This document shows positions 7,187 through 11,966 of a stretch of 64,000 nt of DNA, in pieces. Each line of letters starts with the position of its first letter. Positions within the stretch are counted from its first letter, which is position 1. The stretch covers positions 1-64,000 of the forward strand of contig JALHQW010000026.1 of NCBI GenBank assembly GCA_022841745.1. Reading direction: 5' to 3'. Source of the DNA: Saprospiraceae bacterium. Lineage in GTDB: Bacteria; Bacteroidota; Bacteroidia; Chitinophagales; Saprospiraceae. Under the pieces are notes generated by a model. That model saw nothing but the letters and a program-made list of their open reading frames with translations. It searched no databases and was not told where the DNA came from. Both the position numbers and the translations under genes were made by a program.

Positions 7187-7490
7187 AACAATTTGCTTTG
7201 CGACGGCTTTGCAAGCCAAGATTTTTACGATAAAAATAGGGCAATTTTTGGGAACTGCCACCGATTTTAGCCAATTGGTCAGCAAGCGGCTATTCCAATT
7301 TGCCCGGCATAAGTAACGAAGGCAGCGGTGTCAAGTTTTTCCCCCAAGCATAATTCTATTAAAATTGTTAAGTCATTTGGCAGCCGCTTTATATTGCCCC
7401 AATAAATATTTGTTTTTTCGTAGCGCCCCCACTTTATTTTTTGCCTGATAGGGATTACCTTGCATCATCTTTTAACAAACAAAAAATACT
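7187..7490. other. Divergent intergenic region with putative small-peptide promoter
   Basis: This 304-base stretch separates the minus-strand secreted protein from the plus-strand small-peptide genes and holds no credible gene. A possible Bacteroidota promoter for the peptides is TATTTG at 7407-7412 (-33-like) and TATTTTTTG at 7435-7443. The second resembles TANNTTTG but has one extra spacer base. A start about 7450 would give a leader of some 40 bases. Confidence 0.35.
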
Positions 7491-7664
7491 ATGCTGACAA
7501 ACTTATTGATTCTTGTCCTTTCCTTCTTCGGCCTGAACCAACAATCAGGCTCTTCCGGCAAACCTGCCCCTACTAATAAGCCCGGTACAGAGATTCCTAA
7601 GCCTTCCATTTATGACAACAAAGGCACAGAAAAGCGTTCTGGCGGAGGCTGGGACCTAAATTGA
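7491..7664 (+). CDS. Putative peptide precursor ending in Asn (MccA-like candidate)
   Basis: A 57-residue peptide. It begins MLTNLLILVLSFFGL, a hydrophobic helix or leader, continues with a Ser/Pro/Lys-rich middle (KPAPTNKPGTEIPKPS) and ends RSGGGWDLN. The C-terminal residue is Asn, the residue that MccB-family enzymes adenylate in microcin C-type precursors. It lies 316 bases upstream of a gene for an MccB-like enzyme. A second, related peptide gene follows, sharing MLTN, a KPG[TI][ED][IV]xxPSxxDxKG block and even the leader sequence ACTATGCTGACAAAC, so the pair arose by tandem duplication. The ORF and resemblance are seen; a role as peptide-nucleotide precursor is inference. It could instead be a small membrane peptide of another kind. 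Confidence 0.65.
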   Translation: MLTNLLILVLSFFGLNQQSGSSGKPAPTNKPGTEIPKPSIYDNKGTEKRSGGGWDLN

Positions 7665-7718
7665 GTTAAGAAGAACTTCAAAATCCAGCTTCATTTTTCA
7701 TGAACAAAACAATCTACT

Positions 7719-7856
7719 ATGCTGACAAACATTATCATTGTCGTTTTGGCAGTCATTGTCATTAGTGATGGCACGTTAAACTTCAAGCCGACTAAGAACC
7801 CTAAGCCTGGTATTGATGTTGCGGAGCCATCAAGCTGTGACATGAAAGGTGGCTAA
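7719..7856 (+). CDS. Second small peptide, paralogue truncated before the GGWD motif
   Basis: A 45-residue paralogue of the upstream peptide: MLTNIIIVVLAVIVIS leader, then KPGIDVAEPSSCDMKGG and a TAA stop. Directly after the stop the same frame continues as IRGGWDRR followed by TGA, aligning with RSGGGWDLN of the first peptide. So either a premature stop removed the conserved tail, or the tail was traded for a C-terminal Gly-Gly. Even read through, it would end in Arg rather than Asn. It may be a decayed copy, or a peptide with a different C-terminal chemistry, since E1-like enzymes elsewhere activate Gly-Gly ends. Its stop overlaps an alternative upstream GTG of the enzyme gene. Confidence 0.55.
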   Translation: MLTNIIIVVLAVIVISDGTLNFKPTKNPKPGIDVAEPSSCDMKGG

Positions 7857-7926
7857 ATACGAGGAGGCTGGGATCGCAGATGAATCCAACTTTCCTTTCG
7901 TTGAATTTAGACAGGAACAAAACAAC

Positions 7927-7963
7927 AAGCCGTTTGGGGCATTGCCTCCAAACGGCTTTTTTT
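7927..7963 (+). terminator. Intrinsic terminator between peptide genes and MccB-like gene
   Basis: An 11-bp perfect stem (7927-7937 AAGCCGTTTGG with 7948-7958) followed by a T7 run. It lies after the two peptide genes and only 17 bases before the ATG of the MccB-like gene, so peptide transcripts should mostly stop here, with limited read-through into the enzyme gene. It also argues that the enzyme starts at 7981 and not at the upstream GTG at 7849. Confidence 0.85.
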
Positions 7964-7980
7964 GTGCCAAATTTCAAACC

Positions 7981-9018
7981 ATGCAAAACCAGCGCATACG
8001 GGTAAAGCGGTTTTACCAGTTGCTCCGCAACGAAGTCAACTACGATTTTATCAAAACCCTCGACGAGGGTGTGAAACTGCCTGCCCAAGCCTTTTCAGAA
8101 ACTTTCCTTAGGCATTTGTTAGTTACCGACGATGAAGTTGCTCTGGTAAAAAACATGGCCGCCGAGCTTGGGTTGCAATCCTCCGATGTGCAAGGTTTTG
8201 TGAACAGCATGCTCGAAATGGGCGTGCTGGAACGGTTCGACGAGGCTGAAAACAAAAAACATGAGCGTTATGACCGACAAATGCTTTTTTGGGACACCAT
8301 GCAGCCCGCTTCCGACTATCATGAAAACTGCCTTCGGCAAGAGCGTCTCCTGAAGGCGCACGTGGCTGTGCTCGGCATCGGCGGCATCGGCAACTATTTT
8401 GCCCTTTCGTTGGCGGCATCCGGCATTGGCAAGCTTAGCCTCGTTGACGGCGACACGGTGGAAACCAGCAACCTCAGCCGCCAAATACTGTTCTCAGCCG
8501 CCGACCTAGGCAACCCTAAGGCCGAGGTTGCCAAGCAGCGCCTCTTGCTCACCAATCCTGATTGTCAAATTGAAACCTACCGTGAGATGGTCTCGACCAA
8601 ACATGCTTTCCGTTCGCTTGTGGAACGACTTGCCCCCGTGGACTACCTTATCCTTTCCGCCGACCAGGCCGTAGAACTGCCGCTATGGGCTTCTGACCTC
8701 CGCAAGGCATTCAATTTCAAGGCAGTGAAATGCGGCTACATGGGCTACCAAGGCTTGATTGGCCCCGTCTTCGGCCCCGATACGCCCGGCTACGACGAGC
8801 TTTTCCAACCGTGGGCGGGCCTTATTGCCTCGCAAGACGAGACCGTGAAAGGCTATCATGCCCGCCAAGCAGCACCAGCCAGTAGTGCCTCGAATGCTAT
8901 CTTTGCCAATATCGCCTGCCTTGAAGTGCTTAAGGATTTGAGCGGCACTGGCAACGTCAACCTGATGGGCAAGCGGCTATTGTTCAACCTGAAAACCCTT
9001 GAAATGCGGTGGGGCTAA
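7981..9018 (+). CDS. MccB/ThiF-like adenylating enzyme with N-terminal peptide-binding domain
   Basis: A 345-residue E1-like enzyme, close in length to E. coli MccB (350). Residues 1-95 form a winged-helix-type region in the place of MccB's peptide clamp/RiPP recognition element. Residues 96-345 are the ThiF adenylation fold. Visible ATP-site features are the GIGGIGN loop (132-138), VDGD (155-158), SNLSRQ with Arg167, and Lys180 in GNPKAEV. RYDRQMLF, ASGIGKLSLVDGD, LILSADQ and the following G-YxGxxGPVFGP pattern parallel the order of motifs in MccB. MccB joins AMP to the C-terminal Asn of its peptide. The Cys pairs that bind zinc in MccB are absent (GYDELF in place of GCYEC). The start at 7981 gives an MccB-sized protein. 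Exact substrate unproven. Confidence 0.8.
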   Translation: MQNQRIRVKRFYQLLRNEVNYDFIKTLDEGVKLPAQAFSETFLRHLLVTDDEVALVKNMAAELGLQSSDVQGFVNSMLEMGVLERFDEAENKKHERYDRQMLFWDTMQPASDYHENCLRQERLLKAHVAVLGIGGIGNYFALSLAASGIGKLSLVDGDTVETSNLSRQILFSAADLGNPKAEVAKQRLLLTNPDCQIETYREMVSTKHAFRSLVERLAPVDYLILSADQAVELPLWASDLRKAFNFKAVKCGYMGYQGLIGPVFGPDTPGYDELFQPWAGLIASQDETVKGYHARQAAPASSASNAIFANIACLEVLKDLSGTGNVNLMGKRLLFNLKTLEMRWG

Positions 9019-9123
9019 ACTCAGAACATGTTTTGTGCCATCATAATCAGCCCTGAAAATCAGCGTCCATCAGCGTCAAAATTCAATTATTGCGCGGCAA
9101 AAAAGACAATAAAGCCCTAGTAA

Positions 9124-9155
9124 CCAGCATCCATCAGCATCCAGCATCCAGTATC
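9124..9155. repeat. Heptamer repeat CAGCATC
   Basis: Degenerate tandem copies of CAGCATC/CAGTATC in the gap before the P-loop NTPase gene. The same motif in the opposite orientation (GATACTGGATACTGG) makes up the left arm of the hairpin at 15525-15585, so this is one member of a dispersed repeat family. Confidence 0.6.
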
Positions 9156-9164
9156 ACAAAAAAC

Positions 9165-9710
9165 TTGAATCACCACAAAGTCCATATCATGGGAGCCCCC
9201 GGCGCAGGCACCACCTCCCTCGGCAAGGCGCTTGCGCAGCACCTCGGCTGTCCCCACTTCGACACCGACGATGCCTATTGGTTCACCGACGACGAACTGC
9301 CTTACCGCCGCAAGCGCAACCCCGACCATCGCCGCCAATTGCTCTCCGGACGTTTGGCAACTTCGGAAGGCTGGGTGCTTTCCGGTTCGCTCTGCGGTTG
9401 GGGCGATGTCTTTGCTCCGCAATTCGACCTCGTGGTTTGGCTCTGGCTGCCCGCCGCCGTGCGAATTCTCCGCATCGTGCAGCGGGAGCGGCTGCGCTAT
9501 GGCGATGCCCGCCTTGACCCCGGCGGGGATTTGCACGTGGTTTTTGAAAAATTCAAGGCTTGGGCGGCTGCCTGTGATGGAGTGGGTGGGGGATTGCGAA
9601 GCAAGGAAAACGAATTGGCATGGCTGGGGAATTTGACTTGCCCCGTGCTGAAATTCGAAGAGAAAATGGAAATAGCCCAACTTATGGATAGGGTGGTTGC
9701 CTGTCTATGA
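9165..9710 (+). CDS. P-loop NTPase/kinase-like protein, atypical Walker A
   Basis: A 181-residue protein of the small nucleotide-kinase-like P-loop fold. The phosphate loop reads GAPGAGTTS, with Thr16 where the Walker Lys is expected. Later landmarks are FDTDDAYWF, a conserved-looking WVLSGSLCGWGD, the hydrophobic strand LVVWLWLP and an Arg-rich lid (RILRIVQRERLRYG). This matches a widespread bacterial family annotated as AAA or adenylate-kinase-like, of unknown substrate. The TTG at 9165 is preferred because the first beta strand (HKVHIM) needs those residues, while the longer reading from 9090 would translate an intergenic heptamer repeat. ATG 9189 is another option. It follows the MccB-like gene by 146 bases, so a shared role is possible but unproven. 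Confidence 0.7.
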   Translation: MNHHKVHIMGAPGAGTTSLGKALAQHLGCPHFDTDDAYWFTDDELPYRRKRNPDHRRQLLSGRLATSEGWVLSGSLCGWGDVFAPQFDLVVWLWLPAAVRILRIVQRERLRYGDARLDPGGDLHVVFEKFKAWAAACDGVGGGLRSKENELAWLGNLTCPVLKFEEKMEIAQLMDRVVACL

Positions 9711-11111: not shown

Positions 11112-11966
11112 ATGTTCTGGGCGGTGGTGTTCTTTTCCATCATGAACGCCACCATCAAGGGCGTGGAGAACTTGCCGACGATGGAAATCGTGTTCTTCCG
11201 TTGCGTTTTTTCCATCGTTTTCAGTGTGTTCTGGCTCAGGCGAATCAAGGTCTCATGGCAGGGAACGCACACGCTTTTGCTTATTGGGCGGGGGCTGGCG
11301 GGCACCACAGCGCTGTATTTTTTCTTCCTGAGCATCCAAAACATGCCACTGGCCTCGGCAGTGACGATTGGCTATACCTCGCCCATCTTTACGGCGCTGC
11401 TGGCTGTGTTGTTTTTGAAGGAAAAAATGCGGCCCGTTCAATGGCTGTTCTTTGCCGTGTCGTTCCTCGGTGTGGCGGCGCTGAAGGGCTTCGACGAGCG
11501 GGTCTCGTGGCTCTACCTGGGGTTTGGGCTTTTTGCTGCCGCAATGTCGGGGGTGGCCTACGTGCTGGTGCGCAGCCTGAAAGGGAAGGAGCACCCAATG
11601 TTGGTGGTCTTCTATTTCCAGTTGGTCGGCACGGTGGTCGGTGGGGCGTTCACGCTGTTCAATTTCGTGATGCCACAGGGATGGGACTGGCTGCTGCTGA
11701 TAGCAACGGGGGCAGCCGCACATTTTGGGCAGGTGTATCTGACCCTGGCCTTGCAGGGCGAAAAAGTGGGCGTGGTGTCGAGCCTGAACTTCTTGGGGGC
11801 CATCTTCGCCACTATTTTCGGCATCGTTTTTTTCAAGGAACACCTCACCTTCGGCAACGTGCTGGCCATCCTGCTCGTGGTGGCCGGGGTGCTGCTCAAT
11901 ATCTGGACGAACGCCCGTGGCGGTACTGGCATCCGGCGGTGGGTGGCGAATTTGTTGTCAAAATAA
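11112..11966 (+). CDS. EamA/DMT-family transporter
   Basis: A 284-residue integral membrane protein with about ten hydrophobic helices arranged as two EamA repeats, each with the usual pattern: a first helix like FSIMNATIKG, a conserved ASAVTIGYTSPIFTALLA stretch, and the corresponding GVVSSLNFLGAIFATIFG in the second half. Drug/metabolite transporters export small metabolites such as amino acids or nucleotide derivatives. The N-terminus is uncertain: homology-like residues (SPAVVH) precede the ATG but no upstream in-frame ATG exists before a stop at 11049. It is 1.4 kb from the NTPase gene with a convergent gene between, so membership of the peptide locus is not supported. Confidence 0.85.
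   Translation: MFWAVVFFSIMNATIKGVENLPTMEIVFFRCVFSIVFSVFWLRRIKVSWQGTHTLLLIGRGLAGTTALYFFFLSIQNMPLASAVTIGYTSPIFTALLAVLFLKEKMRPVQWLFFAVSFLGVAALKGFDERVSWLYLGFGLFAAAMSGVAYVLVRSLKGKEHPMLVVFYFQLVGTVVGGAFTLFNFVMPQGWDWLLLIATGAAAHFGQVYLTLALQGEKVGVVSSLNFLGAIFATIFGIVFFKEHLTFGNVLAILLVVAGVLLNIWTNARGGTGIRRWVANLLSK

Follow-up and report, generated by a model that had tools for sequence, protein, structure and literature searches.

A locus of about 1.5 kb in a Saprospiraceae bacterium, comprising one ThiF-fold enzyme gene and one intact precursor peptide gene, probably encodes a minimal RiPP pathway in which the enzyme adenylates the C-terminal Asn carboxylate of its precursor. That the product is a microcin C-like peptide-nucleotide is a tentative reading that we consider less likely than not. 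The window (the whole 64-kb stretch of DNA that was analysed) carries on its + strand, in 5' to 3' order, precursor gene A1, precursor copy A2, a hairpin with a T run and the enzyme gene. An earlier note on this DNA had described a 57-residue Asn-ending peptide followed by a 345-residue enzyme, and both were confirmed, at 7491-7664 and 7981-9018 respectively; the A2 copy, the hairpin and a Trp at position -4 of the peptides are features that it did not contain.

The A1 open reading frame (7491-7664, + strand) encodes a 57-residue peptide that begins MLTNLLILVLSFFGL and ends in Asn, with a Trp four residues from the C-terminus (GGGWDLN). It matched the peptide profile at E 2.2e-35, a profile that includes A1 itself, and is 67% identical to its counterpart in a related locus (L004, described below), with a dN of 0.27 and a dS of 1.69. 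On this comparison, A1 looks like a gene under purifying selection. The second copy, A2 (7719-7883, + strand), looks decayed: it matched the profile at E 3.4e-8 with one TAA inside the match, in frame before the tail, which reads GGWDRR. Its L004 counterpart is intact (dN 0.45, dS saturated). All four precursor copies of the two loci begin with MLTN and a hydrophobic run, and carry GGWD at a distance of four to six residues from their C-terminus. The final residue is Asn in all three intact precursors (A1 and the two in L004) and Arg in the decayed A2, while Trp-Asp is present, with the Trp at -4, in 4/4 copies. The peptides are 53-57 residues in length and rich in Pro and Gly, with the strongest conservation at both ends. 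Alignment of the three intact precursors shows the Glu of an EIPKP segment and the Asp of the WD tail to be invariant; no Glu-Glu (EE) pair occurs in the window and L004 precursors. This layout would fit a RiPP precursor made up of leader, linker and core. The idea that the peptide is exported by means of a signal peptide was set aside because its start appears to lack a positive charge, a judgement made without a prediction tool.

Between the precursors and the enzyme gene lies a terminator-like hairpin with a T run (7927-7963, + strand), the 13-pair stem of which occupies 7927-7958. A stem search of 7200-9300 found 6 terminator-like sites where 3.5 were expected, with the 7927-7958 stem being the longest. 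Folding of 7915-7975 gave -24.7 kcal/mol (z -4.5), and the corresponding hairpin of L004 gave -21.5 kcal/mol (z -4.5); in each case 0/200 shuffles folded as well. Upstream, a comparison of the window with L004 identified a common AT-rich box, AATAAATATTTGT (7400-7413, + strand), some 80 nt 5' of the first peptide gene and at about equal spacing in L004; it is put forward tentatively, from its presence in both loci, as a candidate promoter element. The spacing of the box relative to an upstream TTTG does not fit the promoter rule of Bacteroidota. The list of open reading frames also holds a 389-residue frame that starts with GTG at 7849 and overlaps the enzyme gene in phase. This GTG is probably not the start of the enzyme, given that the L004 homologue starts at an ATG matching 7981 and that the hairpin lies at 7927-7958. 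A search of 7200-9200 against Rfam families gave 0 matches, and no tRNA or tmRNA was found in the window. Just 3' of the enzyme gene, at 9049-9154, there is a 42-nt direct repeat whose copies are 71% identical at a spacing of 64.

The enzyme (7981-9018, + strand; 345 residues) is a ThiF/E1-like adenylyltransferase. Residues 97-342 matched the ThiF family (PF00899, E 3.4e-42), the only Pfam family above its cut-off, whereas matches to NCBI models (the best 25 of 32 among those listed) all fell below the models' own cut-offs. In a sequence search of the PDB, PaaA (5ff5, E 3.6e-25) and MccB (1.8e-24) were followed by ThiF (7.7e-19), and both also ranked above MoeB and ubiquitin-type E1s. Over residues 94-345 the enzyme shares 28% identity with E. 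coli MccB, and the alignment pairs its R167, K180 and D228 with identical residues in MccB. By a review's description (PMC12250964), and not by alignment with EnfB, these correspond to the ATP/Mg residues Arg167, Lys180 and Asp225 of EnfB. No CxxC motif is present in the sequence. The genome contains one other ThiF-family gene, which is MoeB-like, lies on a different contig and is 46% identical to the enzyme over residues 119-210.

The N-terminal part was described in the earlier note as a domain positioned where MccB binds its peptide. A profile-profile comparison with eight plasmid ThiF-family proteins, E. coli MccB included, matched residues 12-344 with a probability of 100%, but residues 1-95 alone reached only 3.4% against the same profile, which is not significant. 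AlphaFold2, run on a two-sequence alignment, gave a mean pLDDT of 46.4. A profile of the N-terminal part found 2/296 genomes including its own, the second match (G700, E 1.9e-4) being a MarR-type winged-helix protein; this fits a winged-helix fold and is no proof of a RiPP recognition element (RRE). Residues 1-93 are a probable N-terminal RRE, short of proof. Two traits of the RRE-fused ThiF-like RiPP enzymes (TLATs) can be recognised here: a ThiF/E1 domain with ATP and Mg residues is present in the enzyme, and a conserved precursor gene adjoins the enzyme gene in 2/2 loci.

A scan of a genome collection with the enzyme confirmed two loci, L004 and L005. The latter aligns over 76 residues at 33% within a 212-residue ThiF-like frame and was left out. 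L004 is a contig of a Saprospiraceae metagenome-assembled genome, apparently G011 of the same genus, with an enzyme 83% identical to that of the window (dN 0.112, dS 1.61). It contains two intact tandem precursors (tails GGGWDLN and RGGWDHN), a similar hairpin and then the enzyme, so that an Asn-ending peptide is kept beside the enzyme in the one related genome found, a check that the earlier note had proposed. The flanking genes differ between the window and L004, which indicates that the conserved unit consists of precursors, hairpin and enzyme. The enzyme and A1 look to be under constraint between the two species, with conservation here resting on two known loci and one species pair.

The enzyme is sparsely distributed. 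Including its own genome in each count, it was found in 2/60 relatives (E 1e-40), 2/373 genomes of the family (E 1e-26), 1/396 of the order (E 1e-24) and 1/395 of the phylum (E 1e-22); these draws overlap, and at such thresholds a relative as distant as the MoeB-type proteins, or more so, would be missed. Within the genus, 2/14 genomes have the enzyme and 12/14 are without it at E 1e-26. Plasmid and phage collections yielded only distant ThiF-family proteins, all below 60% identity, and the viral contigs scanned contained no relatives that could deepen the alignment; a pattern scan of them gave 0 matches. The peptide profile found 3/100 genomes including its own, with the third match (E 0.007) inside a 1076-residue frame, and a wider draw gave 22/345 including its own, the 21 others at E 0.002-0.05. 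In the frame lists of two of these 21 matches (L041 and L043), no precursor-like peptide was seen. A DNA pattern for the tail of IndA matched four viral contigs; in two of these (L049 and L051) it hit within a long phage-like frame, which was put down to chance.

Neighbouring genes were surveyed by Pfam in 10 window frames between 211 and 14368, in the frame 9090-9707 and in five L004 frames, with the window from 14.4 to 20 kb inspected by eye. The 10 window frames include a TonB-dependent receptor, a sigma-54 regulator, a type IX-secreted protein, a beta-lactamase-fold protein, an EamA-like transporter and members of the SUI1, PrmC and Ham1 families; two had no match above the cut-off. The five L004 frames comprise a type IX-sorted protein, a TonB_C domain, the end of a UvrD helicase and two frames without matches. 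Neither an MFS exporter, a GNAT protein, an S66 peptidase nor a HIT protein is found among the scanned neighbours of either locus, in agreement with the earlier note, which had seen no adjacent MccC exporter, immunity or decoration gene. The scanned neighbours likewise contain no gene for export, proteolysis or immunity that could be tied to the module, no M16 protease or oxygenase and, together with the enzyme itself, no match to a sulfur-carrier, JAB, rhodanese or E2 family. The only transporter seen nearby is the EamA-like gene at 11112-11966, 2.1 kb from the module; as a common gene of the genus, present in 9/14 genomes, it was rejected as an operon partner. The downstream P-loop kinase-like gene (9192-9707) was also rejected, being present in 5/14 genomes of the genus and located on a different contig from the module in G011. 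Homologues of this kinase-like gene in two genomes of the genus (G004 and G008; L054 and L055) adjoin a large gene, so its neighbourhood differs here; the large gene matched M14 peptidases (E 1.3e-4) in L054 and no Pfam family in L055.

Trees were calculated from 23 rows, and from 17 after six long or divergent rows had been dropped ahead of the AU tests. The two Saprospiraceae enzymes grouped with plasmid proteins from Priestia, Pantoea ananatis and Sinorhizobium with support of 90/88 (23 rows) and 87/86 (17 rows), a grouping that was not starred and carried a long-branch warning. Apart from the Sinorhizobium row, these companions are unstudied members of the ThiF family. The Sinorhizobium row itself is clearly homologous to PaaA (5ff5, E 6.9e-145), making PaaA, subject to the same warning, the nearest studied enzyme in the tree. 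A further row labelled PaaA_Pagg (L020) had been named from its adjoining dioxygenase and is only a distant PaaA relative (E 8.3e-26). E. coli MccB and H. pylori MccB, with the short genes MRTGNAN and MKLSYRN at their loci, grouped apart from the enzyme, with a Lactobacillus gasseri protein in the 23-row tree and alone in the 17-row tree. Forcing the window pair together with these two MccBs lowered the log-likelihood by 10.8 and was weakly rejected (AU p 0.025), in a test run after the first tree had been seen, on a single 17-row set with two MccBs and none from the long-precursor clade. Forcing the pair with the MoeBs cost 8.5 log-likelihood units and was not rejected (AU p 0.165), while the three MoeB rows formed a 100/100 group without the enzyme in the free tree. 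The enzyme is therefore not clearly an MccB by its position in the tree, which on its own leaves room for kinship with MoeB; evidence against such kinship comes from the additional N-terminal segment, from the tailed peptides and their conservation, and from the lack of any carrier protein among the scanned neighbours.

No weight is placed on alignment columns shared with MccB. Asn138, in the GGIGN motif, is common only to the two MccBs among 21 other proteins, but stood among 33 hand-picked columns, and when all columns are counted the two MccBs rank only 9th and 7th among 210 pairs. Of the MccB-like character proposed in the earlier note, what holds is that PaaA and MccB outscore ThiF and MoeB in the PDB; a specific MccB identity is not supported.

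Three further loci with ThiF-family genes were noticed. Upstream of a Priestia ThiF-like gene, a 32-residue frame with a strong Shine-Dalgarno sequence (L012, 5590-5688) is a candidate precursor whose last residue is Pro in place of Asn. On a Lactiplantibacillus plantarum plasmid, tandem near-identical 22-residue peptides ending NGSC (L017, 2876-2944 and 2993-3061) lie upstream of genes for a ThiF-like enzyme and an MFS protein, and may be a further case of RiPP precursors in tandem, here with Cys at the tail. On an Acinetobacter johnsonii plasmid (L031, 1012-5348), near a BREX gene, two ThiF-family genes overlap, an unusual pairing, and a gene for an ABC protein comes next.

ThiF-like RiPP enzymes have at least five reported chemistries, those of MccB, PaaA, GrcB and EnfB (PMC12250964) and of IndF (PMC12150305). 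A study of MccB enzymes (PMC6495379) reports that all MccA precursors found end in Asn, most having 7 residues and those of a smaller MccB clade 17-56, that a terminator separates mccA from mccB, and that PaaA homologues served as the outgroup. The present locus resembles microcin C in its Asn-ending precursor, in the order precursor, terminator, enzyme and in a ThiF fold with ATP/Mg residues, and A1, at 57 residues, falls next to the range of the long-precursor clade. Unlike microcin C loci, it has two tandem precursors with a conserved Trp-Asp near the tail and an enzyme outside the group of the E. coli and H. pylori MccBs, and among the scanned neighbours in the window and in L004 there was no linked gene for an MccC-type exporter, for MccD/E decoration or for MccE/F immunity.

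We infer a scheme in which the N-terminal MLTN and hydrophobic stretch would act as a leader held by the putative RRE, followed by a Pro/Lys-rich linker and a C-terminal GGWDxN core. The enzyme would use ATP-Mg to adenylate the C-terminal Asn carboxylate, and the Asn side-chain amide would be the natural first nucleophile, giving a succinimide as in MccB; MccB is described as first adenylating the carboxylate, which the Asn side chain then captures (PMC13255007). Attack on a second nucleotide may then yield a microcin C-like peptide-nucleotide. The terminator between the precursor and enzyme genes would keep peptide levels above those of the enzyme. Asn-based C-terminal chemistry is favoured because the side-chain amide adjoins the activated carbonyl and because the gene order matches that of mcc. 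The odds on a nucleotide product are set below even because no linked exporter or immunity gene was found among the scanned neighbours, the enzyme stands apart from MccB, and the studied protein closest to it in the tree is a genuine homologue of PaaA. The microcin C-like label is a plausible lead and is not established.

The strongest competitor to Asn-based chemistry, and one absent from the earlier note, is macrocyclisation at the C-terminus, which we consider unlikely, if a real rival. The ring would be an indolylamide or another macrocycle anchored on Trp; for an indolylamide, the enzyme would adenylate the C-terminal carboxylate and the indole nitrogen of Trp -4 would attack it, closing a W-D-x-N ring. 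IndF links Trp6 of IndA, through its indole N, to the carboxylate at the C-terminal Ile9 (tail W-Y-F-I), and its small cluster includes an M16 protease and a transporter (PMC12150305). The spacing is the one retained in every precursor copy here, and the small cluster with a ThiF-like enzyme is a further likeness by description. EnfA, of 21 residues, requires Trp17 and Trp18, the latter also at -4 (PMC12250964), and the tree does not favour MccB. At the tail, however, stands Asn where IndA has Ile, and the Asn side chain would be a competitor of the indole; the protease and transporter of the ind cluster have no tied counterpart among the scanned neighbours. Chemistry of the PaaA type, in which internal Glu or Asp side-chain carboxylates would be activated instead of the C-terminus, appears improbable. 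PaaA is the best PDB match, a PaaA homologue is the nearest studied protein in the trees, the precursors resemble that of pantocin A in being longer than MccA and having a leader, and the EIPKP Glu and WD-tail Asp are invariant; yet the peptides have no Glu-Glu core and are most conserved at their two ends, no oxygenase is linked to the enzyme among the scanned neighbours, and the grouping with PaaA is weak, with tree support of 88/85 under a long-branch warning.

A ThiF/MoeB-like enzyme that activates a sulfur carrier or a ubiquitin-like protein, with the peptides either unrelated or serving as a carrier whose GG is bared by trimming, is very improbable. The similarity to the genome's own MoeB-like protein, the GG in the tails and the MoeB grouping that the AU test left standing are in keeping with it, as are PADLOC E1-E2 models that match the E1 core (best E 5.4e-17), but these span only approximately residues 99-238 (best 25 of 33 matches). 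The 100/100 MoeB group without the enzyme, its approximately 93 extra N-terminal residues, the missing CxxC and the lack of carrier, JAB, rhodanese or E2 matches in the enzyme and the scanned neighbours all count against it, and peptides of 53-57 residues appear too short for a beta-grasp fold. Firm placement in ThiF/MoeB clades, named in the earlier note as evidence against its reading, was not seen in the free tree, even though a MoeB grouping was not rejected. It is quite unlikely that the RiPP locus of this genome is in decay or without function: A2 has a stop and lacks the Asn, and most genomes of the genus are without the enzyme, but the reading frames of A1 and the enzyme are open, and comparison of the two species indicates purifying selection on both, which still allows for a recent loss in one.

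The clues diverge, with the terminal Asn pointing to MccB chemistry, the Trp at -4 to the geometry of IndF and EnfB, and the tree to a place beside PaaA. It is possible, though rather unlikely, that the locus represents a stand-alone Saprospiraceae RiPP family, with one enzyme acting on a Trp-Asp-x-Asn tail to give an undescribed product, either a peptide-nucleotide without its own export and immunity or a ring using both Trp and Asn, for example by succinimide formation and subsequent indole attack. We met no ThiF-like RiPP enzyme from Saprospiraceae or other Bacteroidota among the titles and texts consulted; 'bacteroid' occurs 0 times in the main text of PMC12250964 and 'bacteroidetes' 0 times in PMC6495379, counts that do not prove absence in print. 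The locus raises the question of how a self-toxic product would be made without linked export or immunity, and the unit is so small that known and new chemistry should be separable by a single in vitro assay.
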